Positions 6,994-57,602 of a DNA stretch of 64,000 bases are shown here, in pieces; within the stretch, counting starts at the first letter, position 1; each line of letters begins with the position of its first letter. Source of the stretch: Tetraselmis striata (lineage: Eukaryota > Chlorophyta > Chlorodendrophyceae > Chlorodendrales > Chlorodendraceae); contig VCJN01000646.1 in assembly GCA_006384855.1 (NCBI GenBank), positions 1 to 64,000 of the forward strand. Direction: 5' to 3'. The translations under genes were made by a program, and so were the position numbers. Under the pieces are notes generated by a model. The model searched no databases. It was given only the letters and a program-made list of their open reading frames with translations, and was not told the origin of the DNA.

Positions 6994-7024
6994 CCCTGTG
7001 AGATTCAGATGTGACATACGGGTG

Positions 7025-7700
7025 ACGAAGCACTACTACTAGCGACTATTATTTATCCGTGAAGGCTGCTGCTGGTGGCGGCACGTCCATCCAATTACGT
7101 GCGAGTACATCCGGCGTTATTGCCGGCGGGCGATAAACCCTTGTTGTAATCATTGTGCGTGGTAGTCGTACTAGCGCGGTGACGCGTTACATGGCACTGA
7201 CGTATAAGGTACGAGGTTGTCCGTGCAGTACCGGGTAGTACGCGATATATTTATTCAGCCGGTACCGGGTATCTAGTACGAACCCGGGCGCAATGACGAA
7301 TCGTCCTGTGGATAACTACGACTATTAGTACATGGGAGCGCGAATCTCAGCCGTACTATTCGGCCAAAGTGGGGAATTTTGTGTACATTATAGTTAGTAT
7401 TGCTGAACGGGCCTGCCCGCCGTCCGATCAAAGGTCATCAGACGGGCGGTTTGGCTGGCATGTTTTGCCAAAGAGTGCTCACGTTACATAAATATTTGCA
7501 AGGGGGAGGGGGGGCAGGCAGTGCTTTGCCGAAGAATGTGTGAATTACAATATTCGCGACAGCTGCCGTCGGGGCATGTGGCGGGGGGTGGGCGGGGGGT
7601 GGGCGGGGGGGGGGGGGGGGGGGGCGGGCGGGCGTGGTCCCCGCGCCCCCCGCCCCCCCCCCCCTCCTTCCCCCGCCGCCCGCCGCTCCCGCCGGGGGAG
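7025..7700. other. Subterminal non-coding region of the left TIR element
   Basis: This stretch is shared, inverted, with 56600-57260. It contains TATTTATCC and repeated CCGGTACCGGGT-like motifs near 7255-7275. It ends in G/C homopolymer runs at about 7570-7700. No gene is seen. Confidence 0.6.
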
Positions 7701-7728
7701 TGAGGGGAGGGGGGTAAGGGTGCGGGGG

Positions 7729-8418
7729 CTACTGCTTGTTCTTGTTCTTGCGTGCCCGGGGGACCCTCCGCTTCGACGATCTCGCTGCCTCCGCCTCCGC
7801 CTCCGACTCCGCGACCGTCAGTTTCTTACCTCGGCGCTTCTTCACTGGCCTCTTCCGCTTCTTGTCATCCGTCAGTGTCTTCACCACCCCGGGAGGATGT
7901 GCCGTCGACGACGCCGCCATGAGCTTCCTTACCTTGGCGTCGGGACGCCCCCTGTGCCCAGACGCCCACAACAAGCCACAATCGTTTCGCCTATAAGCGG
8001 CTGAGGATGCGGCCTCCTCGGCCACCACGAGTTGCGCCGCTGGCAGTGTGGAAGCCTTGGCGTTGAGGTGGGCCTTACGGCGCTCCCGGACGAACCTGCG
8101 CGCGGCACGAGTTAGCCACGAGTGGGTGCGTGCTAATGTGGAGGGTGGAGTGTTTTGTTGCGCGCCCACCTTGTCACGCGTTTCCTCATGTCTTTCTCGT
8201 CCTCCTCGATGCCGGCGGCGCGGACACGCGAGACAACAAGGCTCGCCGCCCACTTTTGCCCGGGGGACGAGGTCTGCCATTGCGCTGTGAGCGGTGAAGG
8301 GGGGGGGGGGGGGGGGGGGCGAGGTGCAGAAACTAACACCCAGTCGACGACCGCCTTCCGCAGCAGTCAACGACACAGCGGAGGCGAGGAGCAGCGCGCC
8401 ACTACTATTTATATGCAC
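7729..8418 (-). CDS. Basic Lys/Arg-rich protein of the TIR element (left copy)
   Basis: Unknown family. Both element copies keep a 74-bp GT-AG intron (here 8096-8169) that joins an acidic/basic helix (AGIEEDEKDMRKRVTR) to FVRERRKAHLNAKAS. The product then runs VVAEEAASSAA and, in this copy, continues to a strongly basic tail (DDKKRKRPVKKRRGKK, then SKRRVPRARKNKNKQ) ending at 7729. Two strong donor-like sites (AAG/GTAAGG and GAG/GTAAGA) lie in the tail region, so further splicing is possible. The tail resembles nuclear-localisation and nucleic-acid-binding sequences. A DNA-binding accessory protein of the element is a reasonable guess. Conservation of the intron in both copies is the best evidence that it is a real gene. 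Confidence 0.5.
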   Translation of the reverse strand: MHINSSGALLLASAVSLTAAEGGRRLGVSFCTSPPPPPPPFTAHSAMADLVPRAKVGGEPCCLACPRRRHRGGRERHEETRDKVGAQQNTPPSTLARTHSWLTRAARRFVRERRKAHLNAKASTLPAAQLVVAEEAASSAAYRRNDCGLLWASGHRGRPDAKVRKLMAASSTAHPPGVVKTLTDDKKRKRPVKKRRGKKLTVAESEAEAEAARSSKRRVPRARKNKNKQ

Positions 8419-8559
8419 GTATTATCAAGAGCTAGTCGGTGCGGCATTGTGTCGGCGTAATTTCGCAATGTTTATTGTTGAAGTAGCACGGCGTAGTGAA
8501 TACGCGGTTTCACCGAGTGAATCCGGGATAATATATGCGGTAGGGCGCGCGTATATGTG

Positions 8560-8650
8560 CGCGACGAATGTGTGCGGATGTGCGCAGCGTTGTGCGGCGG
8601 TGTGCGGCGGTGTGCACCGATGTGCACGAAGATGTGCACGACATGTAGGG
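8560..8650. repeat. Short tandem GTGTGCGGC / GATGTGCA repeats
   Basis: Variants of TGTGCGGCG and GATGTGCAC recur every 8-12 bp. The inverted copy has the matching run near 55640-55690. They lie in the subterminal part of the element, and a related motif is expanded at 47873-48040. Confidence 0.65.
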
Positions 8651-8779
8651 GCGGAGCGGGTGTGTCCGCCGCTCCACCCAGCGCCGCAAATCTCCGTGCG
8701 TGGGCACCCCCCCCCCCCCCCCCCCCCATTAAACCTGCCGCCATGATTATGTCACACAGTGTTAAATCCCCGAGCTCCT

Positions 8780-9753
8780 CGCTGATAAAGATGCGACGAC
8801 GAGGTTGCAAGCCTACCTCGAGCGGTGGCTACAGGATGGTGGTACCTATGACCCCGTGCACCTATAGCTGTGGAGGCTTCTCGGACAAGACGCCGCGCAT
8901 GCCTTGCTGAGAAGGTTCCCTAATGAGGTCCCGACTCCATACCCGGATCTGAACGCTCCCGGGCTGCTAGAGGTGGGTTTGTTGTCGCACATCGCACAAG
9001 ACCTGGTTGGTTTCAGCGAAGGACGCGGCGGAGCGGAAGGGAGTACAAACGTCGTGGTTATGAGCATGGTGTTGAGCATGGTGTGTGTGCCCCTGACACC
9101 AACAAGTCATCCTGCCCCTGGAAGACCTGGACGTTGCAGACCACACGCAGGTGAAGCCGTATGGCGGGGAAAAGGAGGGCAAAGTCGACCTGTGGAAGCT
9201 GTGGCATTGGGCAAGGAGTGCGCTTGAGACCTGGGTCGGCAAAAAGCAGAGGCGAATGAAGAGGTGCCCCCCCCCCCCCCGCCCCCTTCAACCCCTGACT
9301 CGTGTGTCGCTTATTCTGAGCGTGTGCCTTGCAGGAAGGCCTTGTTTGCCGCCTTGATGGAATTGCGGCGCGCTTTCGTGGTTGGTGCCGAGAAGGCCGG
9401 CGAGCTAGCACTAGGGTTTTGGTCCTGGCCGGTGATCGCGTTGGCAGGGGCACCTTCTGGGACTGCCTGGCTGCGGCCGTGCGGACGACCCTACCCAGTA
9501 CACGCCGTTCCTGGCAGCCTACAACGAGGCACTCTACCCACACATCACCCCCCGCAGTGATGCTGCGGAGAAACGCAATCACGAGTTGGCGGCGCAGTAT
9601 GTGGCCCACTTTGGGGATCATGCTGTATGTGTTGCCAAACCATTTGTACAATGACGAGGACAACGCCATCATCCATGCCAGAGCGAAGGAGCTGCGGCTT
9701 GTTGTTGAGGCTGCGGCTCCATACGATCGGGTCTGGCAGCACCGCCCGTGCTA
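8780..9753 (+). CDS. Element gene present only in the left copy, decayed or multi-exon
   Basis: I do not recognise this protein. Protein-like stretches follow one another on the plus strand: RLQAYLERWLQDGGTYDP, LLRRFPNEVPTPYPDLN, DLWKLWHWARSALETW, YTPFLAAYNEALYPHITPR, NHELAAQYVAHFGDHAV and a final IIHARAKELRLVVEAA ending in a stop at 9753. Frames change between some of them; part of this may be introns (a C-tract follows MKR near 9264) and part decay, since an in-frame stop interrupts the first stretch. The inverted copy has lost about 1.1 kb here, keeping only the last few tens of bases. The composition, aromatic and charged with few low-complexity runs, differs from the GC-driven shadow frames nearby. 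Confidence 0.4.
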
Positions 9754-10100
9754 GTAAATAAGCGACAATGGATCACGTCGTCATGCTCCGGTTGTACTCC
9801 TACACTTCCTCCACTTTGGCGGGTGGGGGGGGGGGGGGGGGGTTCCTGTCCTTATTACTTGCATCGGTGGACGTGCTAGATATGGAGGTCACCGGGCACA
9901 TCGCGTGGTTTCGGAGCAGTTCATTCGCGCCACCTCGTCTTGTTTGCAATCGTCACCCTAATCCAATGCAGGGTGAGTAGCGGGACAATGTGCCCCCCCC
10001 CCCCCCCCCCCCCCGGTTTATGTAAACAAATATCTAGCCGTGCATGCGCCGCAATCGGTACCCAATGAGCGGGGTATGTGACAGTGGTTTTGGAGCAGTG
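9754..10100. other. Non-coding spacer with G and C homopolymer runs
   Basis: A G-run lies near 9824-9842 and a C-run near 9991-10014. Between them is a short stretch without recognisable coding. It leads into the 367-bp tandem repeat. Confidence 0.5.
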
Positions 10101-11460
10101 CAAGCATTCCGTGCGTGTGCACAAGCACGTACGACTGGGAATGAGGCGGGGGTTGCGGATGGCTGGAGTGCATTGGCGGTGCATAGAATAGCATGTTGCC
10201 GGGGTTTTGGCTGCATCGGACGCCGTATTCCCATCCATCCGGCACAGAATGTCCGGTTTTCACACATTTGTGTGTGAATATAGTGCGAATATTACGCGTC
10301 TTTTACGCCGGGTGGATGTGCATCCGGCGTCCGATGCACCCCAATTATGTGCAGCACGCTAGTATGTGCACTGCCAGTGCACTCCGCAAGCACCGCCTCC
10401 GTCCGCGTGGGAACCGGTAGTAAGTGTTGTTGTGTGCCCACATCGTGACAACATTACACGGTGGCAATTGCAATTAGCGGTGGATAATGTGAAGGCGTTT
10501 TCGAAATCGACGGAGAATGAGGCGGTGCTGGCGGAGTGCATTGGCTGTGCATAGAATAGCGTGACGCTGGGGTTTTGGCTGCATCGGGCGCCGTATTCCC
10601 ATCAGTCCGGCACGGAATGTCCGGTTTCACACATTTGTGTGTGAATATAGTGCGAATATTACGCGTCTTTTACGCCGGGTGGATGGGCATCCAGCGTCCG
10701 ATGCACCCCAATTATGTGCAGCACTCTAGTATGTGCACTGCCAGTGCACTCCGCAAGCCCCGCCTCCATCCGCGTGGGAACCGGTAGTAAGTGTTGTTGT
10801 GTGCCCACATCGTGACAACATTACACGGTGGCAATTGCAATTAGCGGTGGATAATGTGAAGGTGTTTTCGAAATCGACAGAGAATGAGGCGGTGCTGGCG
10901 GAGTGCATTGGCGGTGCATAGAATAGAGTGTTGCTGGGGTTTTGGCTGCATCGGACGCCGTATTCCCATCCATCCGGCACGGAGTGTCCGGTTTTCACAC
11001 ATTTGTGTGTGAATATAGTGTGAATATTGCGCATCTTTTACGCCGGGTGGATGGGCATCCGGCGTCCGATGCACCCCAATTATGTGCAGCACGCTAGTAT
11101 GTGCACTGCCAGTGCACTCCGCAAGCCCCGCCTCCGTCCGCGTGGGAACCGGTAGTAAGTGTTGTTGTGTGCCCACATCGTGACAACATTACACGGTGGC
11201 AATTGCAATTAGCGGTGGATAATGTGAAGGCGTTTTCGAAATCGACAGAGAATGAGGCGGTGCTGGCGGAGTGCATTGGCGGTGCATAGAATAGCGTGTT
11301 GCTGGGGTTTTGGCTGCATCGGGCGCCGTATTCCCATCCATCCGGCACGGAGTGTCCGGTTTTCACACATTTGCGTGTGAATATAGTGTGAATATTACGT
11401 ACGCGTCTTTTACGCCGGATGGATGGGCATCCGGCGTCCGATGCACCCCGAATCTCACCA
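10100..11460. repeat. Tandem repeat, unit 367-368 bp, about 3.7 copies, each with a hairpin
   Basis: The block GGGGTTTTGGCTGCATCGG begins successive units, with hairpin starts at 10213, 10580, 10948 and 11316 (steps 367, 368, 368). In each unit about 31-base arms, GCATCGGACGCCG...CCATCC and its complement, face each other across about 62 bases, giving imperfect inverted repeats at 10213-10337, 10580-10704, 10948-11072 and 11316-11444. The loop contains smaller palindromes (CACACATTTGTGTGTG; AATAT...ATATT). The inverted element copy has one unit, with its hairpin at 55184-55316. Copies differ at only a few positions, so the expansion is recent. Confidence 0.9.
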
Positions 11461-11599
11461 ACACGCTACTCTACGCACCCCCAATGCACTCCGCCAGCCC
11501 CGCCTCTTTCCGCGCAAGTCCTACGTTCCATTGTATGTATATACATACGTACATGTACTGCTCCGAAACCAGCCCAAACTTAATGAGTGCACAAGTGTA

Positions 11600-11950
11600 A
11601 ATGGGGGGGGGGGGGGGGGGGGGGGAAGCGGGGCATCCACTCACACATACCCCGGCGATGCATGACAGATATTACATGCCGTGGCGGGTCGGAGGGCCGA
11701 CCCGGCGGGGGGTGGGGGTGGGGGGGGCGGGGGGGGGGGGTCTATTCAACTACATGTGCGACAGTGTCGTTTCGTGGAGCAGTATATGTGCCCGGCCTCA
11801 TTTATACCGCTCCCTACCTGCGCTGCATGGTCCACCCCTACGAATTACTTAGCACAAACCGCCATTACTTAATAGGAACCTAGCACAGCCATGCTTATAT
11901 GCCCGCTTTACCGGTCAACTTCTACGCACCTCCCGTCCCTGACCGCCGGA
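11600..11950. other. G-rich spacer of the TIR element
   Basis: Holds a G-run of about 22 bases near 11604, a second G-rich block at 11705-11745 and a conserved, probably untranslated stretch. It is shared, inverted, with 54730-55040. No gene is supported. Confidence 0.5.
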
Positions 11951-11982
11951 CATGGGGGTTAAGCCGCCAGCCTCGGCAGTTG

Positions 11983-12190
11983 CTTAGCCAGACTTGTCAT
12001 CCCGTACCGTGTCCATGGCTTCGCAGCTCTGCTGCCGGCACACGCCGAGTCCGGCGCTTGCTGCCGCCGGGTTGCGCACGCATGCACGCACGGTAATACG
12101 CCGCCGACGCCGCCACGCTTACTTCCACCGCCTTCGCCAGCAGCAGCTTCGCACGCCGTTCCGCCGAAATACGAAACGCACGAATCCCCC
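11983..12190 (-). CDS. Small element protein exon (left copy)
   Basis: On the minus strand an Arg/Ala-rich helix can be read: RAFRISAERRAKLLLAK, then VSVAASAAYYRACMRAQ and SKRRTRRVPAAELRSHG. The inverted copy at 54418-54745 has the same reading with a longer open end. It is preceded by a C/G homopolymer that may lie in an intron. Unknown function, probably nucleic-acid binding by composition. It is divergent from the Cys-rich gene that starts nearby on the other strand. Confidence 0.35.
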
Positions 12191-12214
12191 CCCCTCCCCC
12201 CCCCTCCCCGCGTC

Positions 12215-13132
12215 ATGTATAATATATTCGAGGCGACTATGCGGGGCGCAGCACACGCCGCCGCGTGGGTCGGCGGAGCGGCGGGCGGCGGGAGCCCTAA
12301 TGGCCGGGCATCAGTATCCACACCCACACCGGCACCGCCGCTCACCTCCGACGCGGATGAACCGCCTCCCAAAGGAAACATGCCGGTTGGTGGTAAGCGC
12401 AGCAGGCGTGGGGTGCCAGTGCCGGTACATGTGCGACGGAGCTGTCGCGTCAGGATCCGCACCGCAACCGCAACCGCACCGCATGTGGAGCAACACATGG
12501 CGGTGCCGGCCCCACCTATGTCTAGGGCCACCTCTTCACAGCACCCCGCCACGACGGCGTCGGCCACCGCCGACGGCGCCGTTGCGGGGGGGGGGACGCC
12601 CTGCCAAGCGACGATGATGCGCCTGATGCGCCGCGTCAGAAGGCGGAGGAGGCCGTGGTCGAGGCGACTGATAGGGCTGAGGGGGTTGTCGAGGCGAGCG
12701 AGGCTGCGCTCGCGCCACCCGCCCAACAGCCACCTGCCCGCGGGACATGCCGACTTGCTCGTCGCCATGTTGACCGGAGCACTACGAGCAGTGGCGGAAA
12801 GCGGCCACATGCACTATCATGTGCGTGTCTTGGCCGGACGCCCGTCATGCGTGTACGGCGGCCAACGGACGGAATGGGAGTGTTGCTGCGACGGGACCCC
12901 GGCTTGGTGCGGCCCCAAGTACCCATGCATGGCGACCCATCAGCGGGCAGTCCCCTGCCCGACCACGGCCGCGGTGAGGGCGGAGTTCCGCCATGTCAGG
13001 GACGCGCTCCACGACGCGACTCGCGCCGCCGTGTGTGAGGCTTCCGAGAAGGCACGCGCGGCTGGTAGGGTGCGCAGGGTGAGACGGCGGACGGCCCGGG
13101 AGATGAAGGAGAGCGAGACATGCCGTCAGTGA
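12215..13132 (+). CDS. Element protein with C-terminal Cys/His-rich domain (left copy)
   Basis: Open for 305 codons, ending at 13132. The first half is Pro/Ala/Thr-rich and differs between copies. The last ~130 residues are conserved with the inverted copy (53496-54197) and end in the same KESETCRQ. That part holds a zinc-binding-like array: a Cys in GRPSCV, then WECCCDGTPAWC, PKYPC and MATH, spaced like treble-clef or RING-like clusters. The other copy has CVDCGQRT where this one has CVYGGQRT, so one putative ligand Cys is lost here. The following part is a charged helix (HDATRAAVCEASEKARAAG) with an Arg-rich run. Cys-rich C-termini occur in several transposase families (piggyBac is one), but no catalytic core is seen in this frame. 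Confidence 0.5.
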   Translation: MYNIFEATMRGAAHAAAWVGGAAGGGSPNGRASVSTPTPAPPLTSDADEPPPKGNMPVGGKRSRRGVPVPVHVRRSCRVRIRTATATAPHVEQHMAVPAPPMSRATSSQHPATTASATADGAVAGGGTPCQATMMRLMRRVRRRRRPWSRRLIGLRGLSRRARLRSRHPPNSHLPAGHADLLVAMLTGALRAVAESGHMHYHVRVLAGRPSCVYGGQRTEWECCCDGTPAWCGPKYPCMATHQRAVPCPTTAAVRAEFRHVRDALHDATRAAVCEASEKARAAGRVRRVRRRTAREMKESETCRQ

Positions 13133-13329
13133 GGTCGGGCGCAATGTTATTGGGTGGGGCACACGGGCGTGTATCACTTGCACTTTGCGCGTACTGCTGG
13201 GTTACATCCAGGCGGCGTCACACTATGCAACCGGAAAGGCTGCGTTGCTACTGCACACGATGCCAAGCCTCACTCGGTACCAAATACTGCCCCGCCTATC
13301 CCACAGCCGCTGCCCCCCCCCTCCCCCCC

Positions 13330-15025
13330 CTCGCGCACCGTCCTGCGACCTCGCGTGGATCCCCGCCACCAGCAGCTCCCCGGCGTCGACGCCCAAGTCG
13401 GCGGCCTTCGCGGAGGACATGTCGGCAGGGGCCATGAGAACAGCCACCTTGCGGATGCCCGGACCATCTAGGAGGACAAGGGCCTCCTCCCCGCCGGAAC
13501 CACCGCCGCCGCCCGGCACTCTCCGCAAGTCCAAGCCCACGGCAGTGTGGGCTCGTTCCGGCGTCCACACCGTACACAATGCAGCCCGAATGGGCCGCGC
13601 GCTGGCACGGCTGTCGTCCGAGTCAGCCCCTGGCGGGGGCGGTGGCGTGGCAAGGTAGAAGGGTTGAGCTCGCGCGACCATGGTGGTGTACTGGGCGTCT
13701 TCGCGCTCCGCCAACATGTTTCTTGGCAGCTCCTCCTCGCTCTCCAGCTCCTCGGTGGTGTAGGGGGGTGGGTCGGCGTCGGGGACTTGCTTCAACATCT
13801 TGTACACAAAGAAGGAGTTGTCTCTCGACGTCCCCCCTCCCCCCCCCCCCCCCCCGGTGAAGCCGGGGCTTGTCGCCGTTGCGAAGCGACGCCGCCTTGT
13901 AGGCCAGGAGCCCCCCAGCGCCACCGCTGGGGGTCCACCCCGGCAGGACCGCACCCCAGCCCGCGAGTATGGGTGCATACGAGTGCGAGCCCTGCACCGT
14001 ACGTCGGACGTCGTCCAGCAGCTTCTGCAAATGGTCCTTGAAGTCCACCGCGTCCTCCCACGCAGCGGATGCGCTCCCAACCAACCGGATGGGCCTCTCC
14101 ACGGCGCCGGGGCAAGCGTCGTCTGGGGCCATGTACCCATGTGTGTGTGTGGGTGGGTCGCTTTGAGTGCGAGTGTGAGTGTGAGTGTGTGTGTGTGGGT
14201 GGGTGGGTGTGGGTGCACGTGGCTGAGGAGGAAGCAAGAGGGGGGGGGGGGGAGACCTTCTTGTTGGGGTTGGGTTCCCGGTAGAGGCGATGCGCCTTCA
14301 TGCGGTTGATCTGCTGCGCGAAAAGGTCATCGCCTTCAGGGACGGTTACCAAGCGAGCCTCCCCGTCCGCATCCACAGGGGGGTGCTCCTGGGCAGCCGC
14401 CATAGCCTCCACAACCTGCCACGCCGATCGGGCGGGTGCGTGTGATTCCATACAACCGCAGGTGAGTGGTGCCACCAGCACACAGGCCGGGCCCACTCAC
14501 CTCTGAACGCAGAAGGTCCACAGTGTCACCGTCCTCGAAAACAGCGCGCCACTAGGTCGCCCCGCCGTAGTCCTCCAACACCCACTCGGTAACGACGCCG
14601 GTTATCACGCCGTAGTGCCATACTCCCCGGAACTTCTCGGCGATTACCTTCATGTAGAAGTCACTGGGATCGCCTTCCCGTATCACGCCCGCATCGGCGG
14701 CTTCCACGCCCGCCGGCGGCCACGCAGGCGCATCGATGTCCATACCGTCTTCGCCAACGGGGTCATCCCCCGCGCCCATCACGTCGTCCTCCTTCGAGCC
14801 GCCGTCGTCCGAGACCGGCGCCGGCGGCGGGCCGTTTCCGACGGCTGCAGCTACTCTTGCTGCCGCCCCTGCCGCCGCTGTTGCTGCTGCCGCCGCCCCT
14901 GCTGCTGCTGCTTGTACTAAGGCGGCCTTGCGGCGCAACTTAGCCGCACGCTTCAACGAGTGGCTACAGTTCGGGAATTTTAGGAAGTGCCGCTCTCGTG
15001 CCGTCTTATCACTACTGCCCGTCAC
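13330..15025 (-). CDS. Zinc-finger/tudor-like element protein (left copy), multi-exon
   Basis: Read on the minus strand, it begins near 15025 with a BED-like half-finger region (ERHFLKFPNCSHSLKRAAKL; the preceding C-x2-C is clear only in the inverted copy). A poly-Ala segment and an acidic linker follow, then KVIAEKFRGVWHYGVITG and VVTEWVLEDYGG, resembling tudor/chromo-type beta-barrels. A GT donor near 14503 and an acceptor near 14420 lead to EAMAAAQEHPPVDADGEA and QQINRMKAHRLYREPNPNKK. More distal exons read AWEDAVDFKDHLQKLLDDV, FFVYKMLKQVPDADPPP and RKVAVLMAPADMSSA. Introns carry the long C/G tracts. Probably the element's DNA-binding or transposition protein. The catalytic core is not identifiable, and the middle of the gene differs from the other copy by deletion. 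Confidence 0.5.
14140..14215 (+). repeat. GT-rich microsatellite (GTGTGT, GAGTGT, GGGTGG variants)
   Basis: Compound dinucleotide/hexanucleotide repeat inside an intron of the leftward element gene. It is a simple-sequence repeat with no other role visible. Confidence 0.8.
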
Positions 15026-15029
15026 CCAG

Positions 15030-15672
15030 CCCTAGCAGTGCTTGCATATGTACACGCCATCCTGCGACACACTCGATATCCATCCCGTTCCCGGCATGCC
15101 TGCTACCGCGCGCGGGGGGCCGGGGGGGGGCTGAGAGTTGGGGGTGGATGTAATCCACCACCGGCAGGCAGCAGAGATGCGAGTGCGCGGCTGTCCGCGC
15201 TTGGTTCAGCGGTGAGCGGCGGTGACCGTGAGGCGACCCCGTACTTCATACGCGTGCTGGGGCGTTACACAATCATCAGCAGTTAGGGCGGCTGCATTTG
15301 AACGCGCACCTACGAACACCACCTACCGCCTACCACCTACCGTACCACCTACATCCGCCCACACCTCCGCCCGTCGTGCCGCACATCGCCGCACACGCGC
15401 GGGGTCGGCGATGCGCAGCGATGTGCAGCGAGTACGTGCAGCCGCCTGTACTTAGCCCGGGTGCTCCGCGTCGGCGCGCGACACGCGAGCCCGCGTGCGC
15501 ATATCAATTTGATGAAATTATGGAAACGAGAAATTCATATAGTACTTTTCACGTCGCGCGCGATAGTCGTCGCTACTCGGTATGAAATCCACGTCCCTCG
15601 TCCGTCCCGTATCGTCCCCGTATGTCGTCGCTCGTCACCAGTAGGGGACATTTACGTGTGAATCTCACGGTG
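15030..15672. other. Right subterminal region and TIR of the left element
   Basis: Contains the block GTGCGCGGCTGTCCGCGC near 15182 and short CCACCTACCGC repeats at 15318-15345. GATGTGCAGCG-type motifs lie near 15415, and the inward-facing terminal repeat ends at 15672. The same block recurs at 50500-50760 and as an isolated fragment at 47783. Confidence 0.65.
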
Positions 15673-16330
15673 CGCTCGCAAACACCTCGCTTTCTTTCGC
15701 ACGGATGAACATTGGGAGATGTCTTGACGTGTTCTCATGCGCACTAGCTACTCTATGAGACACGTTCTCAGATGCGGCATCATTGGTGGTTGCGATCACG
15801 TGCAAGAGGTAGTGGAGCCACATAATCCGGACTGTCTCGTCGACGAGCGAACGAGCGAAGTCATCTCCGAGACGCACAAGCTATTCACGCTCCAGCACGG
15901 AAACATTGTCGCAAACAAAGGTACATCGGGTAGAGATGCAGCTGACCCCAAATTGTAGAATTTAATCTTGCTGTGAGTCCCAAATTGTCTCGCGAGACAC
16001 GTCATCCGCATCCCCGTTGTCTTCCTCCTCCTCCTCTCAAGCCTTCCTGCGGCACTCCTCCATGATGCCGAGGGTAGTGTGGTACCCGGATATGTTAGAA
16101 GCGGCATTGACTGTGCAACATCCTCGTAACTAGCGCTTCGCGTCAGTGAATTAACCCTTATGGACAGTCATCTCGATGTAGGACAGGGTCGCCTCCCGCA
16201 CAACTAGGCAGTCTTCCACTGGCTGCGACTCAAGATGCGCGTTGAAAGCGATGTTGACGATGGTTGTGAGCTGGATGTTGTTCCCCTTGCATCCAAAGGT
16301 AAAAGTTAGCCAAACTGAGCTACACCCCAT
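15673..16330 (-). pseudogene. Possible leftover gene fragments, minus strand
   Basis: Minus-strand reading gives protein-like pieces in order: NIQLTTIVNIAFNAHLESQP with VEDCLVVREATLSYIEMTV (about 16290-16165), then NAASNISGYHTTLGIMEEC (about 16110-16050), then RLGDDFARSLVDETVRIMW to a stop near 15665. Pieces are separated by stops or possible introns. No family is recognised. It may be an old host gene or element broken up between two mobile elements. Confidence 0.25.
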
Positions 16331-32547: not shown

Positions 32548-32548
32548 C

Positions 32549-34426: not shown

Positions 34427-34475
34427 TTTAGGGTTTAGGGTTTTAGGGTTTTTAGGGTTTTAGGGTTTTAGGGTG
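34427..34475 (+). repeat. Internal telomere-type repeats (TTTAGGG/TTTTAGGG)
   Basis: About seven units of GGGTTTAGGG and GGGTTTTAGGG variants in tandem. The unit types are those of plants and green algae (TTTAGGG; TTTTAGGG in Chlamydomonas). It adjoins the 3' end of the leftward gene ending at 34468. Confidence 0.9.
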
Positions 34476-39629: not shown

Positions 39630-40430
39630 ATATATTATAATTACATGAGCTAGCATATATCGCCTGTATATATCGCGTGTAACGTAAGGCGTCACAGTAC
39701 TTTAAACTTGGCGGTAAGGATGAGTACGGCAGCGGAGCCCTGCATCAAAGTACTATAGCGAGTAGCGGGTACTCGGTAGTCACGAGTGCACAAAGTACGA
39801 CACGAGCACACGAGTCACTGTACTTTACGGGAATCGCCGCCCCTCATATTTGCTATTAGGCGCGCGCCTCCTCACGAGTACAGGTACGCGCGGAAGATAC
39901 CCGCGTGATGACGAGTGATGATGACGAGCAGGCGGGGCAGTACGGTACTGGTCGATACACAACAAAGGCTGCAAAAATGCATTACACGGTAGTCACGGTT
40001 GGTTTTCGCAGCTAGACAGCGTAGATTTTGCATCAAAATGTACGGGGTCGGCTGGGACCGAAAGATCCACGACTGGTACGGGGCCGCCAGACCGGATGGT
40101 GTCCGGAAAGGCGCCGCGCGTCCCGAGCCCCCGCCGGTGTTTGTAAATTACATGCCACCAGCGATCACGTGGCTCATCAGGACAGTACATTCCGCTATGC
40201 TGCTCTCGGCCTCTCATCACGGCTAAGATGTTGGGAAAGCCTGACTAATTGCTGCCGCACCTGGGCTTATCGGACACGCAACACCCCTGTGGGATGACGT
40301 ATATCAAAATGATATTCACTCCCCACCTCAGGTGCTTTCACAACTAACCAGACTAACCCTAATCTAAATCGAGCAGCATCCGGAAACGTACACACAAGCG
40401 ACTCATTGTCTCCGGGCGGGTGGGTGGGAG
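39630..40430. other. Interior of the CACTC element, unassigned
   Basis: Holds short direct motifs (CGCCTGTATATAT twice near 39625-39670) and a 63-codon plus-strand frame starting MYGVGWDRKIHDWYG at 40038, which is uncharacterised. A ~65-bp segment from 40005 recurs at 40628. Confidence 0.4.
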
Positions 40431-40692
40431 ACAATATAGTCGGATGCCTTCCAACAACTGAAGGCGCCCCCGGTCCGCGGCCGCCCTTTATACTCGGCTA
40501 AAGGGCGCCGCCGGACCGGCGCTGGCCGGTACCGGCGTACCGGGCCGGCAGGGTCGTCACTTAACCCTGACGGCGCTGCGAAAACCAGGGTTTCCTAGGT
40601 CGTTCCTCCCAAGGAAACCCTACAGTTTTCGCAGCTAGACAGCGTAGATTTTGCATCAAAATGTACGGGGTCGGCTGGGACCGAAAGATCCA
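40005..40692. repeat. 65-bp direct duplication across an LTR boundary
   Basis: TTTTCGCAGCTAGACAGCG and the following sequence up to GAAAGATCCA occur at 40008-40072 and again at 40626-40690. The second copy starts exactly at the inner edge of the left LTR-like repeat of the gag element, the first lies 360 bp outside it. Confidence 0.75.
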
Positions 40693-48075: not shown

Positions 48076-48099
48076 GCCGACTAGCGCCGAGCGCCCTCG

Positions 48100-48556: not shown

Positions 48557-48925
48557 GGGGGGTGGGGGCGACAATGCCCTCCATTTCTAATATTTTAGTT
48601 TGGCACAGTATACTGCGTTTAATGGCATGATGACTTCGTCTCGTGCCTGTACCAAGCCCGCGGGTCAGGCGATACACTGTTTGTATTACTTGCGGGGAAT
48701 AGTGCTGGTAAATTCGAAAAATGCATTCCGGGCATACCGGCTAAAAACTTCCGTAGTTCTTGGGTGGCGGCGCGCTGATAGTCGCGGGCGTGCGTTCGGC
48801 TTGGGGTTGGGTGCCTTGCATGCGGAGAATCCGCAAACGGCCCACCTGCGGCTGCAAGGGGACCGTCCGGCGCGGGGGGCGGCGGGGGCGATGAGCCTCT
48901 GCCGCGAGCTGGGCCAAGCGGGACG

Positions 48926-49549: not shown

Positions 49550-49889
49550 GTTGCCCGTTGAGATTGTCTCCTGTGGATGAGCCTATTCTTCACGCCTCTG
49601 TGGGCACTGGCCGGCAGTTGGGCTAGGGCGGGCAGCAAGTGGAAGTCTGGTGCCTGCGATTTGTTCCTCAACGATGGCGGTTCGGATCTTGGGGAGTTGG
49701 GTCTTGCCGCCGCGCGGCGCATCGCGAGCGGCGCCGCCCGCGGCCTTGTTGCTCCTCGGTTCTGATGATCTCCAGGGTGGTTGTAGTGATGATCTCCCGT
49801 GGAGCCTGCTTTTCACGCCGCTGTGGGCGCTGGCCGGCAGTTGGCTTGGTGGTGGGTCGTCCGGTCGTCGGGCGGTCCATCGTTTCACA

Positions 49890-50254
49890 TGAGTACACTA
49901 TCATCACCAGTAGAGCCGCGCCGGCTCACCCGGATTTAGTACATACGCAGTACTTCGCCCGGTGTAAGGGCCGGCGGGAAAGTTAAGTGCTCAAATATAA
50001 GTAATTTAAATATAAACAAGCAATTACACAACCACTTGTTGTAGCGAGCGAGTCTCGGGGCATTAGGGCGGCACAAGCAGCATGGCTTAAGCATGCCAAC
50101 AACCTAGTTTATTTCACTAGCTACAGTGTCGACCGACGACACAGAGACAAGAAACAAGCATGTCATGGTCTTCCTCGGGCCGAATGCTTCACACACCAGC
50201 CGCCTGACGGGTGGCATTCTGAGCCTCAGAAACATGATGTTGTCTGCTAGCTCT
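49890..50254. other. Flank of the right TIR element, no gene seen
   Basis: Mixed-composition sequence without coding signal. It ends GCTAGCTCT directly before the CACTGTGAG terminus. Confidence 0.5.
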
Positions 50255-50859
50255 CACTGTGAGATTCAGATGTGACGTAAATGTGCCCTGCTGGTGACGA
50301 ACGACGACATACGGGGACGATACGGGACGGACGAGGGACGTGGATTTCATACCCAATAGCGACGACTATCGCGCGCGACCTGTAAAGTACTATATGAATT
50401 TCTCGTTTCCATAATTTCATCAAATTGATATGCGCACGCGGGCTCGCGTGTCGCCCGCCGACGCGGAGCACCCGGGCTAAGTACAGGCGGATGTACGCAC
50501 TCATTGCACATCGCCGCACATCGCTGACCGCACATCGCTGACCGCTGACCCCGCGGTGTGCCGCGATGTGCGGCACGACGGGCGGAGGTGTGGGCGGATG
50601 TAGGTGGTACGGTAGGTGGTAGGCGGTAGGTGGTGTTCGTAGGTGCGCGTTTTAATGTAGCCGCCCTAACTGCTGATGATTGTGTAACGCCCCAGCACGC
50701 GCATGAAGTACGGGTCGCCTCACGGTCACCGCCGCTCACCGTTGAATCAAGCGCGGACAGCCGCGCACTCGCAGCTGTGTTGCCTGCCGGCGGTGGGTTA
50801 CATCCACCCCAACTCTCACCCCCCCCCCCCCCCCCCCGCCCCCCGCGCGCGGCAGCAGG

Positions 50860-52790
50860 CATGCCGGCAAAGGGATGGATAGCGAGTGTGTCGAAGGATG
50901 GCGTGTACTCATGCAAGCACTGCCGGGGCAACGTGACGGGCACATGTGATAAGATGGCGCGAGAGCGGCACTTCCTAAAATTCCCGAACTGTAGCCACTC
51001 GTTGAAGCGTGCGGCTAAGTTGCGCCGCAAGGCCGCCTTAGTACAAGCAGCAGCATCAGGGGCGGCGGCAGCAGCAGCAGCGGCGGCAGGGGCGGCAGCA
51101 AGAGTAGCTGCAGCCGTCGGAAACGGCCCGCCGGCGCCGGTCTCGGACGACGGCGGCTCGAAGGTGGACGATGTGATGGGCGTGGGGGAGGACCCCGTTG
51201 GCGAAGACGGTATGGACATCGACGCGCCTGCGTGGCCGCCGGCGGGCGTCGAACCCACGATGAGGGCGTGATATGGAAAGGCGATCCCGGCGACTTCTAC
51301 ATGAAGGTCATCGCCAAGAAGTTCCGGGGAGTATGGCACTACGGCGTGATAACCGGCGTCGTTACCGAGTGGGTGTTGGAGGACTACGGCGGGGCGACCC
51401 AGTGGCGCGCTGTTTTCGAGGACGGGGACATTGTGGGCCTTCTACGTTCAGAGGTGAGTGGGCCCGGCATGCGTGCTGGTGGCACCACTCAACTGCGGTT
51501 GTATGGAATCACACGCACCCGCCCGGTCGGCGTGGCAGGTTGTGGAGGCTATGGCGGCTGCCCAGGAGCACCCCCCTGTGGATGTGGACGGGGAGGCTCG
51601 CTTGGTAACCGTCCATGAAGGCGATGACTTGTCCAAGGAATCACGCACCTTGCCCGGCGTGCGTTCAACACAACCCGGCTGGCGGAGGCCAAGCACAACA
51701 CTGGCTGCCATGGCGTGTGCCATGTGCATGTGGTCCTGGGCTATGTCAGCATGATCAATTATCTCTTCCCCCTCGCGCCGTTCCACCTGTTTTTTTTTGG
51801 CTTGGGAAGGGACTTCTGGAGGAAATTTGTCACCGTGCAGGGCCACATTGGATTCCGAGCTATGAAGCAGGAAGACCGGCGCCAGGCTTTAGTCCCGATA
51901 CCCAGCAACTTTGAACGCGGGTTGCGCCCTTCGTTTGCAGTGTCCAAGAATCGAAAGGTAACCCCCCCCCCCCCCCCCCCCCGGGCGTGGGCGTGGGCGT
52001 GGGCGTGGGCGTGGGCGTGGGCGTGGGCGTGACGGCATTCCCCTCCATGACTGCAGGGTCAGGCAAGGTGACGGTGCAGTCCGGCTGGGTCATGGAGGAC
52101 TGCTTGCACCACATGGAAACGTTTTTCATTCTTAACGCCGGTCCGCTGCTCGAGGAGGCCCGGGTGAAGGCGATCATGACCGAGAAGGAGCTTCGCGTCC
52201 CCAGGCGGTGCTTGGGCACATGTACAAGCGCATGCAAGGAGCTGCGTGGTTCGTCACGCGGTGGGGGTTGCAGAATGTGGTGACGGAGGAGGACGGCCCC
52301 GAGCGCAAGGCGCAGGTGGACGCGCTCACTAGGGAGGGGAGGACTCGATACCCAGCGCGGCGCCAAGGCGCGGCGGCCGGGGCAGCGCGGCGCCAAGGCG
52401 CGGCGGCCGGGGCAGCGCGGCGCCAAGGCGCGGCGGCCGGGGCAGCGCGGCGCCAAGGCGCGGCGGCCGGGGCAGCGCGGCGCCAAGGCGCGGCGGCCGG
52501 GGCAGCGCGGCGCCAAGGCGCGGCGGCCGGGGCAGCGCGGCGCCAAGACAGCGCATACAGCGGAATCGGCGGAAAGGGATGCATTACAAGCTGTGGACGG
52601 CAGCCGCTGAAAACTATGCGGTCATGCCGCAACAACCCCAGCACTGGCTTCTGGATACTTCTGATCTGGATGACGGCGGCGGGCTGCGGGATGCAGGGCC
52701 GCATGACTGAGGTGGCGGTGCTGGTGAGCCCGCAGAGTCTGCATGCGGCGGAGGCGGCGCAGCCGCATAGGCACTAGACAATGCTCTGAA
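50860..52790 (+). CDS. Zinc-finger/tudor-like element protein (right copy), multi-exon
   Basis: It starts MPAKGWIASVSKDGVYS at 50860, then CKHCRGNVTGTCDKMA, RERHFLKFPNCSHSLKRAAK, a BED-like C-x2-C...H...C arrangement. A poly-Ala and acidic linker follows, then DFYMKVIAKKFRGVWHYGV and WRAVFEDGDIVGLLRSE, a tudor-like fold. A GT donor at 51453 and an acceptor at 51539 lead to VVEAMAAAQEHPPVDVDGEA. Further exons include GYVSMINYLFPLAPFHLFFF, GRDFWRKFVTVQGHIGFRAM, QSGWVMEDCLHHMETFFILN and HMYKRMQGAAWFVTRWGLQN. The last ends in the 30-bp repeat. The product probably binds DNA ends or chromatin during transposition. One frame change near 51260, relative to the left copy, suggests decay. The catalytic motif is not identified. 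Confidence 0.5.
51962..52031 (+). repeat. C-tract followed by (GGGCGT)n hexanucleotide repeat
   Basis: A C-run of 20 bases is followed by about eight GGGCGT units, inside an intron of the element gene. Confidence 0.92.
52355..52547 (+). repeat. 30-bp minisatellite, 6.4 near-identical copies, in-frame
   Basis: Units of exactly 30 bases starting GCGCGGCGCCAAGG encode ARRQGAAAGA in the element frame. Six full copies look identical, so the array is young. It is absent from the left element copy, where this part of the gene is missing. Confidence 0.95.
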
Positions 52791-53142
52791 GCGAGCCCCA
52801 ATTGTCTGCCCGGCGCCTGCCCCAATGTAACGCACCAGCTTGGCAGCAATTGGCAGCTCTTTTGCCCCCCCTCCACCCCACAGACACACTACCAATACCA
52901 GTTTCTCATCCCGGCGGGCAGTTGATGCGTATACCCAGGCTTGTGCGTACGCGGTGCGGGGGGGGAGGGGGGGGGGAATCACTATAGCTAAGCTAGTGAT
53001 GTGAGATATGAGTGCAGCAACATATATTGTGCAAGATATAATACGATGGCATGCAAGCGGGTCCCCGCTCTTCCACAATCATTGGCCCTGCTCCCTCTTG
53101 CCCCGCCCCCGGTGCCCTTTAGCTGCTCTCAGCATCCCGAGT

Positions 53143-53460
53143 GGGATGGGCGGGGCAGAAGTTGCTACCGAGTGAGGCGTAGCATCGTTTGCAGTAGCAA
53201 CGCAGCCTTTCCGGTGTGACGCCGCCTGGATGTAACCCAGCAGTACGCGCAAAGTGCAAGTGCAAGCTGTTGATGGCGGGGATCCCGCGCGGGGGGGGGG
53301 GGGGGGGGGGGGGGGCAGCGGCTGTGGGATAGGCGCGGCAGCGGTTGCTACAGAGTGAGGCGTCGCATCGTTTGCAGTAGCAACGCAGCCTTTCCGGTTG
53401 CATAGTGTGACGCAGCCTGGATGTAACCCAGCAGTACGCGCAAAGTGCAAGTGTTACACG
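53143..53460. repeat. Partial tandem duplication with G-tract (right copy only)
   Basis: A stretch with GTTTGCAGTAGCAACGCAGC and CTGGATGTAACCCAGCAG occurs at about 53188 and again at 53374, separated by a G-run of about 25 bases (53291-53315). The left element has a single copy near 13180-13310. Confidence 0.85.
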
Positions 53461-53495
53461 TCCGTGTGCCCCACCCAATGACATTGCGCCCGACC

Positions 53496-54197
53496 TCACT
53501 GACGGCATGTCTCGCTCTCCTTCAGCTCCTGGGCCGTCCGCCGCCTCACCCTGCGCACCCTACCAGCCGCGCGTGCCTTCTCGGAAGCCTCACACACGGC
53601 GGCGCGAGTCGCGTCGTGGAACGCGTCCCTGACATGGCGGAACTCCGCCCTCTTCGTGGCCGTGGTCGGGCAGGGGACTGCCCGCTGATGGGTCGCCATG
53701 CATGGGTACTTGGGGCCGCACAAAGCCGGGGTGCCGTCGCAGCAACACTCCCAGTCCGTCCGTTGGCCGCAGTCCACGCATGACGGGCGTCCGGCCATGA
53801 CACGCACATGATAGTGCATGTGGCCGCCTCCCGCCACTGCTCGTAGTGCTCCGGTCAACATGGCGACGAGCAAGTCGGCATGTCCCGCAGGTGGCTGCGG
53901 GGCGGGTGGCGCGAGCGCAGCCTCGCTCGCCTCGACAACCCCCTCAGCCCGATCAGTCGCCTCGACCACGGCCTCCTCCGCCTCCTGACGCGGCGCACCA
54001 GGCGCATCATCGTCGCCTGGCAGGGCGTCCCCCCCCGCAACGGCGCCGTCGGCGGTGGCCGACGCCGTCGTGGCGGGGTGTTGTGAGGAGGTGGCCCTAG
54101 ACATAGGTGGGGCCGGCACCGCCATGTGTTGCTCCACATGCGGTGCGGTTCCTGACGCGACAGCTCCGTCGCACCAGTACCGGCGCCGGCACCCCAC
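53496..54197 (-). CDS. Element protein with C-terminal Cys/His-rich domain (right copy)
   Basis: Open for 233 codons, ending at 53496. Acidic linker (DALPGDDDAPGAPRQEAEEA), coiled-coil-like middle (VEATDRAEGVVEASEAAL), then HADLLVAMLTGALRAVAG and the zinc-binding-like array CVDCGQRTDWECCCDG, ALCGPKYPCMATH. The C-terminal helix carries KARAAGRVRRVRRRTAQE. Compared with the left copy (12215-13132), this one keeps the second Cys of the first C-x2-C pair and the acidic frame upstream, so it probably shows the more original reading. The domain layout resembles Cys-rich DNA-binding tails of some transposases; the exact class is not known. It diverges from the small gene at 54418-54745. Confidence 0.55.
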   Translation of the reverse strand: MGCRRRYWCDGAVASGTAPHVEQHMAVPAPPMSRATSSQHPATTASATADGAVAGGDALPGDDDAPGAPRQEAEEAVVEATDRAEGVVEASEAALAPPAPQPPAGHADLLVAMLTGALRAVAGGGHMHYHVRVMAGRPSCVDCGQRTDWECCCDGTPALCGPKYPCMATHQRAVPCPTTATKRAEFRHVRDAFHDATRAAVCEASEKARAAGRVRRVRRRTAQELKESETCRQ

Positions 54198-54417
54198 GCA
54201 CGCCTGCTGGGCTTACCACCAACCGGCATGTTTCCTTTGGGAGGCGGTTCATTCGCGTCGGAGGTGAGCGGCGGTGCCTGTGTGGGTGTGGATACTGCCC
54301 GGCCATTAGGGCTCCCGCCGCCTGTCGCTCCGCCGACCCACGCCGCGGCGTGTGCTGCGCCCCGCATAGTCGCCTCGAATATAATATACATGACGCGGGG
54401 ACGGGGGGGGGGGGGGG

Positions 54418-54745
54418 GGGGGGGGGGATTCGTGCGTTTCGTATGTCGGCGGAAAGGCGTGCGAAGCTGCGGCTGGCGAAGGTGGTGGAAGTAAGCGTGG
54501 CGGCGTCGGCGGCGTATTACCGTGCGTGCATGCGTGCGCAACCCCGCGGCAGCAAGCGCCGGACTCGGCGTGTGCCAGCGGCAGAGCTGCGAAGCCATGG
54601 ACACGGTACGGGATGCCAAGTCTGGCTAAGCAACTGCCGAGGCTGGCGGCTTAACCCCCATGTCCGGCGGTTGAGGGACGGAAAGTGCGTAGAAGTTGAT
54701 CGGGAAAGCGGGCATATAAGCCTGGCTGTGCTAGGTTCCTATTAA
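54418..54745 (+). CDS. Small Arg/Ala-rich element protein (right copy)
   Basis: After a G-run the frame reads IRAFRMSAERRAKLRLAKVV, SVAASAAYYRACMRAQ, SKRRTRRVPAAELRSHGHG and WLSNCRGWRLNPHVRRLR, ending HISLAVLGSY at 54745. The left copy (11983-12190, minus) has the same reading with differences. Basic helices suggest nucleic-acid binding. The first exon upstream of the G-run is not resolved. Confidence 0.4.
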
Positions 54746-54879
54746 GTAATGGCGGTTTGTGCTAAGTAATTCGTAGGGGTAGACCATGCAGCGCAGGTAG
54801 GGGGCGGTATAAATGAGGCCGGGCACATATACTGCTCCACGAAACGACACTGTCGCACGTGTAGTTGAATAGACGCCCC

Positions 54880-54994
54880 CCCCCCCCCCCCCCCCGCCGG
54901 GTCGGCCCGCCGGGTCGGCCCGCCGACCCGCCACGGCATGTAATATCTGTCATGCATCGCCGGGGTATGTGTGAGTGGATGCCCCGCCGCCACA

Positions 54995-55025
<31 letters not shown>

Positions 55026-55040
55026 ATTTACACTTGTGCA
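54880..55040 (+). repeat. Paired C-tracts with GGGTCGGCCC motifs
   Basis: C-runs lie at 54879-54895 and about 54998-55025, with CCGGGTCGGCCCGCC repeated between them. It is the counterpart of the G-rich spacer at 11600-11745. Confidence 0.8.
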
Positions 55041-55129
55041 CTCATTAAGTTTGGGCTGGTTTCGGAGCAGTACATGTGCGTATGTATATACATACAATGG
55101 AACGTAGGACCTGCGCGGAAAGAGGCGGG

Positions 55130-55560
55130 GCTGGCGGAGTGCGTTGGGGGTGCGTAGAGTAGCGTGTTGGTGAGATTCGGGGTGCATCGGACGCCGGATG
55201 CCCATCCACCCAGCGTAAAAGACGCCTACGTAATATTCACACTATATATATTCACACGCAAATGTGTGAAAACCGGACATTCCGTGCCGGATGGGTGGGA
55301 ATACGGCGTCCGATGCAGCCAAAACCCCAGCAACACGCTATTCTGTGCACCGCCAATGCACTCCGCCGCCAGCACCGCCTCATTCTCTGTCGATTTCGAA
55401 AACGCCTTCACATTATCCACCGCTAATAATTGCAATTGCCACCGTGTAATGTTGTCACGATGTGCGCACACAACAACACTTACTACCGGTTCCGACGCGG
55501 ATGGAGGCGAGGCTTGCGGAGTGCACTTGCGGTGCACAGACTAGCGGGAGACTAGATCCA
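55130..55560. repeat. Single unit of the 367-bp repeat with hairpin 55184-55316
   Basis: Arms GCATCGGACGCCGGATG and its facing complement, about 31 bases each, with a loop that contains CACACGCAAATGTGTG. It matches the tandem units at 10213-11444. Confidence 0.88.
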
Positions 55561-55929
55561 TTGTCGCTTATTTACAAGCACGGGCGGTGCTGCCAGACCT
55601 GATCGTCTACGGCCGATATAATATTCACACTATATTAACATCGGTGCACACCGCCGCACACCGCCGCACACCGCCGCACAACGCTGCGCGCGCACATTCG
55701 TCGCACACATTATCCCGGATTCACTCGCCGTATCCATTACGCCGTGCTACTTCAACAATAAACATTGCGAAATTACACCGACACAATGCCGCACCAACTA
55801 GCTCTTGACAATACGTGCATATAAATAGTAGTGGCGCGCTGCTCCTCGCCTCCGATGTGTCGTTGACTGCTGCGGAAGGCGGTCGTCGACTGGGTGTTAG
55901 TTTCTCCACCTCGGCCGCCCCCCCCCCCC

Positions 55930-56555
55930 CCACCCCCCCCCCCCCCCCCCCCCCCCCTTCACCGCTCACAGCGCCATGGCCGACCTCGCCCCCCGGGCAA
56001 AAGTGGGCGGCGAGCCTTGTTGTCTCGCGTGTCCGCGCCGCCGGCATCGAGGAGGACGAGAAAGACATGAGGAAACGCGTGACAAGGTGGGCGCGCAACA
56101 AAACACTCCATCCTCCACAATAGCACGCACCCACTCGTGGCTAACTTGTGCCGCGCGCAGGTTCGTCCGGGAGCGCCGTAAGGCCCACCTCAACGCCAAG
56201 GCTTCCACAGTGCCAGCGGCGCAACTCGTGGTGGCCGAGGAGGCCGCATCCTCAGCCGCTTAAAGGCGAAACGATTGTGGCTTGTTGTGGGTGTCTACGC
56301 ACAGGGGGCGTCCCGACGCGAAGGTAAGGAAGCTCATGGCGGCGTCGTCGACGGCACAGCCTCCCGGGGTGGTGAAGACACTGACGGATGACAAGAAGCG
56401 GAAGAGGTCAGTGAAGAAACGCCGAGGTAAGAAACTGACGGTCGCGGAGTCGGAGGCGCAGGCGTAGGCGGAGGCGGAGGCGGAGGCGGAGGCGGAGGCA
56501 GCGAGATCGTCGAAGCGGAGGGTCCCCCGGGCACGCAAGAACAAGAACAAGCAGT
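55930..56555 (+). CDS. Basic Lys/Arg-rich protein of the TIR element (right copy)
   Basis: Counterpart of 7729-8418. The exon before the intron reads WAASLVVSRVRAAGIEEDE, KDMRKRVTR; intron 56087-56160 (74 bp, GT-AG); then FVRERRKAHLNAKAS and VVAEEAASSAA with a stop at 56262. Downstream the basic tail (DDKKRKRSVKKRRGKK, SKRRVPRARKNKNKQ) is still recognisable up to 56557, though out of reach of the first frame. A GGCGGA-type repeat (about 56463-56500) is expanded within it. Either the tail is joined by splicing or this copy is truncated. Confidence 0.5.
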
Positions 56556-56571
56556 AGCCCCCGCCCCCTTA

Positions 56572-57260
56572 CCCCCCCCCCCCCCCCCCCCAGGCGGGAG
56601 CGGCTGGCGGCGAGGGGGGGCGGGGGGGGGGGCGGGGCGGGCGTGGTCCCCCCGCCCCCGCACCCCCCCCCCCCCCCCCCCCCCCGGGCCACATTCCCCG
56701 ATGGCAGCTGTCGCGAATATTGTAATTCAATCATTCTTCGGCAAACCGCTGCCTGCCCCCGCCCTCCCCCTCGCGAATATTTATGTAACGTGAGCACTCT
56801 TTGGCAAAACATGGCAGCCAAACCGCCCATCTGATGACCTTTGATCGGACGGCTGGCAGGCCGTTCAGCAGTACTAGCTATAATGTACACAAAATTCCCC
56901 AGTGTTACCGAATAGTACGGCTGCGATTTGCGCTCCCATGTACTAATAGTCGTAGTTATCCACAGGTAGGACCACTCGTCATCGCGCCCGGGTACCGGGT
57001 ACCGGGTACTAGATACCCGGTACCGGCTCAATAAATATATCGCGTACTACCCGGTACTACACGGACAACCTTGTACCTTGTACGTCAGTGCCATGTAACA
57101 ATTTACCGGGCTAGTACGACTACCAGAATGATGACAAAAAGGATTTATCGCCCGCCGGCAATAACGCCGGATGTACTCGCACGTAACTGGATGGACATGC
57201 CGCCACCAGCAGCAGCTTTCACGGATAATAGTGGTCCCGGTACGGTAGTGCTTCGTCACC
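56572..57260. other. Left-end subterminal region, inverted (right copy)
   Basis: Contains C/G homopolymers (56572-56592, 56663-56685) and a triple CCGGGTACCGGGTACC motif near 56990-57010. It shares the rest with 7025-7600. No gene is seen. Confidence 0.6.
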
Positions 57261-57602
57261 CGTATGTCACATCTGAATCTCACAGTGTCTGTGCAATGTA
57301 CCTCTCATACAATAGCTTGCCATCATGGACACCAGACAAACATTAATTTTTGGCGAGCTTTTCGCGCTTGTTGACATTTCTCATGATGGATACGATGCAG
57401 CCAAATTGTCCATCCACATACGATTTCTCGGGCTTGGGACAAGGAGGTCGGATTTGCTGAACACACTTTCGCACTCAATTTGAGAGCCGAGAATGGCCAC
57501 CAATTGCGCAAGCGTGCAAGTAGCGCCAACATTGTGAACAAGCTACTAAACAAACATAAATGCGCAAGTCACCACACTATATGCGATGGAAAACGAAGCT
57601 AC

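Follow-up and report, generated by a model that had tools for sequence, protein, structure and literature searches.

Two probable non-autonomous derivatives of a CACTA/EnSpm-like transposon in one genomic window of Tetraselmis striata

Introduction

The window analysed here is a stretch of 64,000 nucleotides from Tetraselmis striata (assembly GCA_006384855.1, contig VCJN01000646.1, positions 1 to 64,000), which contains two inverted copies of one large element with terminal inverted repeats (TIRs), a left copy at 6994-15672 and a right copy at 50255-57287, lying 34.6 kb apart. Both loci are very probably non-autonomous, internally deleted derivatives of a single CACTA/EnSpm-like (CMCT-type) transposon that were moved in trans. 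The original prediction, which was made from the letters of the window, had already recognised two inverted copies of one TIR element and had pointed to a CACTA-like family, with which the ends, the 3-bp target duplication and the order of the candidate catalytic motifs agree; it took the gene content to match no family that could be named, where we find instead fragments of a divergent CACTA-like transposase together with open reading frames (ORFs) on the opposite strand.

The two copies and their ends

Comparison of the window with itself gave three collinear inverted blocks (50275-51628 against 15657-14326, 92.2% identity; 53298-55546 against 13330-11092, 93.2%; 55638-57285 against 8623-6996, 87.2%), which end at the borders given above. 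Between the first and second blocks the left copy has a private segment of ~1.0 kb (13331-14325) and the right copy another of ~1.7 kb, so that each keeps about 1 kb or more that is lost from the other, as had been predicted, and in shared columns the two copies differ by 11.5%. The terminal sequence GTGAGATTCAGATGTGAC has exactly three matches in the window when up to 3 mismatches are allowed (6998 on the plus strand, 50259 on the plus strand and 57266-57283 on the minus strand; mean of shuffles, 0.05). The right copy begins with CACTG and ends with CAGTG, has a TIR of 22 bp and is bordered on both sides by TCT, which bears out the ends and the possible target duplication proposed for it. The left copy has CACCG instead of CACTG at 15672 and has lost its terminal bases at 6994 (AATCTCACAGGGG on the minus strand), and because of this damage its target duplication is unreadable.

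The features of the two copies are as follows, E1 to E7 being the transposase exons of a longer copy described below.

50255-57287, plus strand: right copy of the element (shared blocks, 22-bp TIR, TCT duplication; its type has 871 genomic junction matches)
50252-50254: target duplication TCT, first copy (flank comparison)
57288-57290: target duplication TCT, second copy (flank comparison)
50255-50276, plus strand: left TIR of the right copy, CACTGTGAGATTCAGATGTGAC (end search, TIR alignment)
57266-57287, minus strand: right TIR of the right copy (end search, TIR alignment)
50861-51483, plus strand: E1 remnant in two frames (frameshifted), with BED-like finger 50861-51253 and tudor-like stretch 51244-51483 (tblastn, ORFs)
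51620-51646, plus strand: deletion junction of the right copy, long-copy 3785 joined to 5134
51706-51957, plus strand: E4b remnant, LAPFHLFFFGLGRDFWRKF... (tblastn, ORFs)
52032-52351, plus strand: E5a remnant, lacking the E5b part that carries the candidate catalytic E (tblastn)
52353-52547, plus strand: 30-bp minisatellite, 6.5 copies (repeat analysis), longer in other copies of this type, where it forms long repeat ORFs
53499-54212, minus strand: Cys-rich ORF of 238 residues, on the opposite strand, neutral in amplified copies
6994-15672, minus strand: left copy of the element, ends damaged (shared blocks; the type with 61 junction matches)
14471-15097, minus strand: E1 remnant with BED-like finger and tudor-like stretch (tblastn)
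14311-14334, minus strand: deletion junction of the left copy, long-copy 3772 joined to 6072
13640-14331, minus strand: private segment with E5b tail 14257-14331, E6 13860-14120 and E7 13640-13822 (sequence comparison)
11963-13129, plus strand: ORF with the Cys-rich stretch as its 3' part (12743-13129), on the other strand from the transposase remnants
10160-11514, minus strand: tandem array of a 368-bp unit, 3.7 copies (self-comparison, repeat analysis)
8769-9715, plus strand: fragments of two opposite-strand ORFs of the long copy, 8769-9071 and 9445-9715 (sequence comparison)

Another contig, C1832 (the stretch L041), matches window positions 4769-15769 at 96-97% identity, in one block of 5.7 kb and another of 3.7 kb. 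Because this match takes in the left copy as well as flanking sequence (~0.1 kb on one side, 2.2 kb on the other), the left insertion must also be present in either a second allele or a duplicate of the locus; L041 is without ~1.4 kb that is present in the left window copy.

The family in the genome

The genome searched was an assembly of 224 Mb in 2903 contigs, in which the window contig is labelled C504. Copies were collected by the terminal sequence, as the original prediction had suggested, the terminal 18-mer having 2384 genomic matches with up to 2 mismatches (1240 + 1144) and the backwards-pattern control a single one (1 + 0). Facing end pairs ~6-9 kb apart, 28 of which were taken among the end matches listed, formed with the two window copies a sample of 30 elements. 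The exact 22-bp TIR, starting with CACTG, was present in 28 of the 30, the exceptions being L025 and the left window copy. Because the pairs had been chosen by 18 bases of the TIR, the new information lies in the four outer bases and in the sharp end at 22. When the left window copy was set aside for its damaged ends, a 3-bp target duplication was found in 17 of 29 elements (GAG, TAT, TCC, CAA, CAA, ACC, GTC, CTC, CAT, GAA, GGA, GTA, TAG, AGG, TGA, ATG and TCT), compared with 9 of 812 mismatched flank pairs, and a duplication of 2 bp, or of any length from 4 to 8 bp, was found in none of the 29 at each length.

The junction of the right copy has 871 genomic matches (458 + 413) and that of the left copy 61 (31 + 30), while the undeleted sequence at the same place has 130 (78 + 52; up to 3 mismatches throughout, all reversed-pattern controls 0), a ratio of right-copy junction to undeleted sequence of ~7 to one. 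Most fetched copies of the right-copy type differ from one another by only 0.4-2.8% in shared columns, L023 and L036 being excluded, which suggests that this type has moved recently. L023 differs from the remaining copies by 5.0-9.2%, L036 by 1.8-5.1%, and the left window copy by 9.4-13.4% from all others in shared columns. If most of the 871 junctions sit in copies of ~8 kb, the right-copy type would make up, by estimate, ~3% of the genome.

The transposase gene of longer copies

A longer copy was located by searching the genome with the private 1 kb of the left copy, and three matches were fetched. One of them, L040, holds coding sequence that is absent from both window copies; its upstream part is L042, in which the left TIR lies at position 884. 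The exons of the predicted transposase in this long copy are:

E1: BED-like finger and tudor-like stretch, open in L042
E2: acidic
E3: TDDGF and WVCDAQGR, bearing the two candidate catalytic D
E4: CPWC at its start
E5: NLHSAVC, an H(3)C motif, and WMENLMGFLK with the candidate catalytic E
E6 and E7: downstream of E5

In a second copy, L043, E3 to E5 lie in one open frame of 806 residues within the fetched stretch, with 89 residues from D to D, 19 from D to the first C and 23 from H to E; the distance from D to E is 388 residues, including a stretch rich in proline and glycine, possibly an intron. The candidate D, D and E residues stand in the order of the CMCT group, C(2)C following the second D. 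Both D residues are kept in two relatives (39 and 44% identity), L045 has CGSC at the place matching CPWC, L044 has the same motif there in another frame, and the candidate E was seen in two close copies only.

When E3 was searched against the genome and the best 150 of 258 candidates were scored, 55 places aligned with 206 or more of its 229 residues at an identity of 90-100%, 49 of them free of stops and 8 in open frames of at least 800 residues. Among the same best 150, about 50 further rows align to the first 50-58 residues only; these partial places probably represent a third deletion class of the family, to which some of the 130 undeleted junction matches belong. Where listed ends and listed E3 rows lie close together on one contig (C8, C19 and C70), the start of E3 is 1.6-2.7 kb inward of an end and is oriented as expected.

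On the minus strand of L040, at ~6440-9813, the long copy has three opposite-strand ORFs of 197-331 residues. A Ulp1-like protease was considered by eye for an L040 ORF (IPVCVSIH...VFDSM), but neither Pfam nor PDB gave a match and we do not claim it. By eye, the long copy is nested in an open frame (L042, 1-883) resembling the N-terminal part of a tyrosine-recombinase retroelement.

Two deletions of one longer element

The right copy, by joining long-copy position 3785 to 5134, is missing E2, E3 and the beginning of E4, and most of 5857-7032 (E5b, E6 and E7) is absent from it too, while the left copy, joining 3772 to 6072, has lost everything from E2 to most of E5; the start points of the two deletions are 13 bp apart on the long copy. 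E3 was not found in the 28 fetched short copies (tblastn, E <= 1e-6) or in either window copy (E <= 1e-3), and E1 is frameshifted in L015 as it is in the right copy. The losses had been described as complementary; the two copies do have different internal losses, but we read the segments concerned as leftovers of two separate deletions of one longer element. The BED/tudor-like stretch and the neighbouring exons are, on this comparison, fragments of one putative CACTA-type transposase, the catalytic exon of which is missing in both copies, and the Cys-rich ORF runs on the strand opposite to the BED/tudor exon.

Relationship to CACTA/EnSpm and other CMCT transposons

Like the present family, EnSpm/CACTA elements have abundant internally deleted derivatives, and a CACTA-type transposon of a green alga exists in Idaten of Volvox carteri. 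Transib elements also have ends of the CAC...GTG type, but their target duplication is 5 bp, compared with 3 bp here. Because of the motif order, the CAC..GTG ends and the 3-bp duplications, we assign the present element to the CACTA/EnSpm (CMCT) group or to its immediate neighbourhood, and consider that it would work as CACTA elements do. EnSpm elements are described as having CAC..GTG ends and 3-bp target site duplications, and the CMCT clade, which includes Transib, the source of RAG1, as having C(2)C and H(3-4)H between the second D and E, the C(2)C motif being shared across the group (PMC12730594); definitions of the EnSpm/CACTA superfamily were also taken from PMC4158355. The ends, the 3-bp duplication, C(2)C after the second candidate D, the order of the candidate D, D and E residues and a predicted multi-exon transposase are common to these elements and ours (PMC12730594; PMC4158355), while ours starts with CACTG rather than CACTA and carries a BED-like finger and a tudor-like stretch at the N-terminus. 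Transib and RAG1 share C(2)C between the second D and E (PMC12730594). The fungal lineages Plavaka and ESTA share the CMCT motifs, and Plavaka has duplications of 2-3 bp, but both are set apart by their description in the same paper, Plavaka by its TGT..ACA or CATCA..TGATG ends and ESTA by its TA duplications (PMC12730594).

Several observations weigh against this reading. No piece of the element matched a Pfam profile at its cut-off, and the EnSpm profile PF02992 matched nothing in the whole genome, although it gave nothing in its 14 control genomes either. In place of the H(3-4)H of the clade, both copies that were read show H(3)C (HSAVC), 23 residues ahead of E. Inspection, not transcripts, was the basis for the transposase exons, and the long copy carries two lesions, an insertion of 1.5 kb ahead of E1 and a frameshift that separates E3 from E4; because of this damage, and because its right end (L040/L042) lies beyond the sequence examined, there is no complete autonomous copy among the copies examined. 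Between the two long copies E3 alone has 6 synonymous and 5 non-synonymous changes (ratio 0.30), while E3 to E5 together have 10 and 20 (ratio 0.71), too few to show selection; E2 lay outside this comparison. Sliding-window substitution counts on one pair of copies were too noisy to delimit exons, for which the comparison with a longer copy was used. Finally, 12 of the 29 elements are without a 3-bp duplication, which may be explained by the pairing of ends from different insertions or by later rearrangement.

Because the second motif is H(3)C and Pfam gave no match, we do not claim formal membership of EnSpm. Likeness to a well-described superfamily, which the original prediction had set as its own refutation, is clear in the ends, the duplication and the motif order but not in profile searches. 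The lowest Pfam E-value for any piece was 0.0063, for PF00428 against the alanine-rich part of E1, which did not reach the cut-off of that profile; BED and tudor are names given by inspection, neither stretch having a Pfam match. A PDB sequence search with 421 residues of E3-E4 returned three matches, the best of which (E 0.042) was to an uncharacterised protein. No relative of the element was confirmed among viral contigs, and an Rfam scan of the window gave nothing at the gathering score. Fold prediction was too weak to use both for the tudor-like stretch (mean pLDDT, the predicted local distance difference test score, 49) and for the Cys-rich tail (mean 59, above 70 in the C-terminal helix only). 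A name for the family was not found in the literature, which was searched by topic and in which sequences are not searchable. It is possible, though less likely than not, that the family is a separate old CMCT lineage, with a BED/tudor-like N-terminus, H(3)C as a zinc site, opposite-strand genes, a transposase that known CACTA profiles do not detect and an ~8-kb derivative whose junction is ~7 times as frequent as the undeleted sequence.

Alternative explanations

Accessory transposition proteins are exemplified by TnpA of En/Spm, and the short copies might still make the Cys-rich protein in such a role, kept by selection. The Cys-rich stretch is indeed free of stops in all 150 scored matches, the best 150 of 1309, at 99-100% identity. 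We nevertheless regard this explanation as unlikely, judging from the selection test on the amplified type, for which 27 of the 30 elements were taken (left window copy, L023 and L036 excluded; 25-27 usable per stretch). Distinct synonymous and non-synonymous changes numbered 3 and 22 in the Cys-rich tail and 8 and 35 in the whole Cys-rich ORF over 26-27 copies, with four stop changes and with frameshifting indels in 10 of 26 copies. The other stretches gave 9 and 39 (BED part), 7 and 12 (tudor-like part), 2 and 11 (E4b) and 3 and 9 (E5a), and none of the six coding stretches of the amplified type departed significantly from neutrality (p 0.12 to 1). These stretches show no sign of purifying selection in the amplified type, which fits coding stretches carried as passengers.

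It is highly improbable that the element is piggyBac-like and that its Cys-rich stretch represents the zinc ribbon found at the C-terminus of piggyBac-type transposases. The Cys-rich and tudor-like stretches do resemble, by eye, sections of L037, a piggyBac-like ORF from this genome in which an N-terminal tudor-like stretch and a Cys-rich one are also seen, but in L037 a single long open frame carries the PF13843 transposase (E 1.4e-29), and no piece of our element matches PF13843. This profile has 113 genomic matches, and among those listed none is on the window contig and none lies between facing family ends on C70, C71 and C135. The target of piggyBac is TTAA, while the duplications here are 3 bp and varied, and the strand of the Cys-rich ORF, opposite to that of the BED/tudor exon, also argues against this explanation. 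PIF/Harbinger is the other large group with 3-bp duplications, TWA being preferred, and this length is what would speak for such an element; it is hardly credible given that neither TAA nor TTA occurs among the 17 duplications, that the ends are CACTG with CPWC after the second D, and that E3-E5 has no Pfam match to the Harbinger transposase. Finally, that one local segmental duplication made both loci, as the same inverted element 34.6 kb apart might suggest, is scarcely conceivable, because the ~2 kb flanks on each side do not match between the two copies (E <= 1e-3), in accordance with the original prediction, and because the right copy has its own TCT duplication and the copies are of different deletion types, 11.5% apart.

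Other features of the window and genome

An internal telomere-type repeat, TTTTAGGG three times over, lies at 34450-34473 and has 31 exact genomic matches (13 + 18; control 0); this is the telomere unit of the Chlamydomonas type, which taken alone would hint at a chlorophycean green alga. Two 201-bp direct repeats (40429-40629 and 42685-42885), 99% identical, enclose a zinc-knuckle ORF on the minus strand (41549-42850; PF00098, E 3.4e-07), and 40429-42885 is possibly a short retroelement of the long terminal repeat type. In L037 (contig C387, 25300-28300) the Cys-rich stretch sits, by eye, in a frame neighbouring the long PF13843 frame.

Proposed mechanism and implications

With the CACTA/EnSpm-like reading, longer copies at other genomic sites most likely supply a DDE transposase, its catalysis being predicted from motifs, that would bind the 22-bp ends (CACTG...), cut the element out and insert it with a 3-bp target duplication. 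Interrupted gap repair has been described as a source of deletions in CACTA-type elements, and interrupted repair of the excision gap is the probable origin of the internal deletions, of at least two kinds, by which the catalytic exon was lost. Of the derivatives, the right-copy type would then have been amplified in trans to hundreds of copies.

The element is ordinary in kind, and what is somewhat unusual is the divergence of its transposase and the success of its 8-kb derivative. What had appeared as an unnamed multi-gene element becomes a readable case of one CACTA-like family with two different deletion derivatives side by side, and its predicted transposase would add a divergent sequence to the CMCT group.

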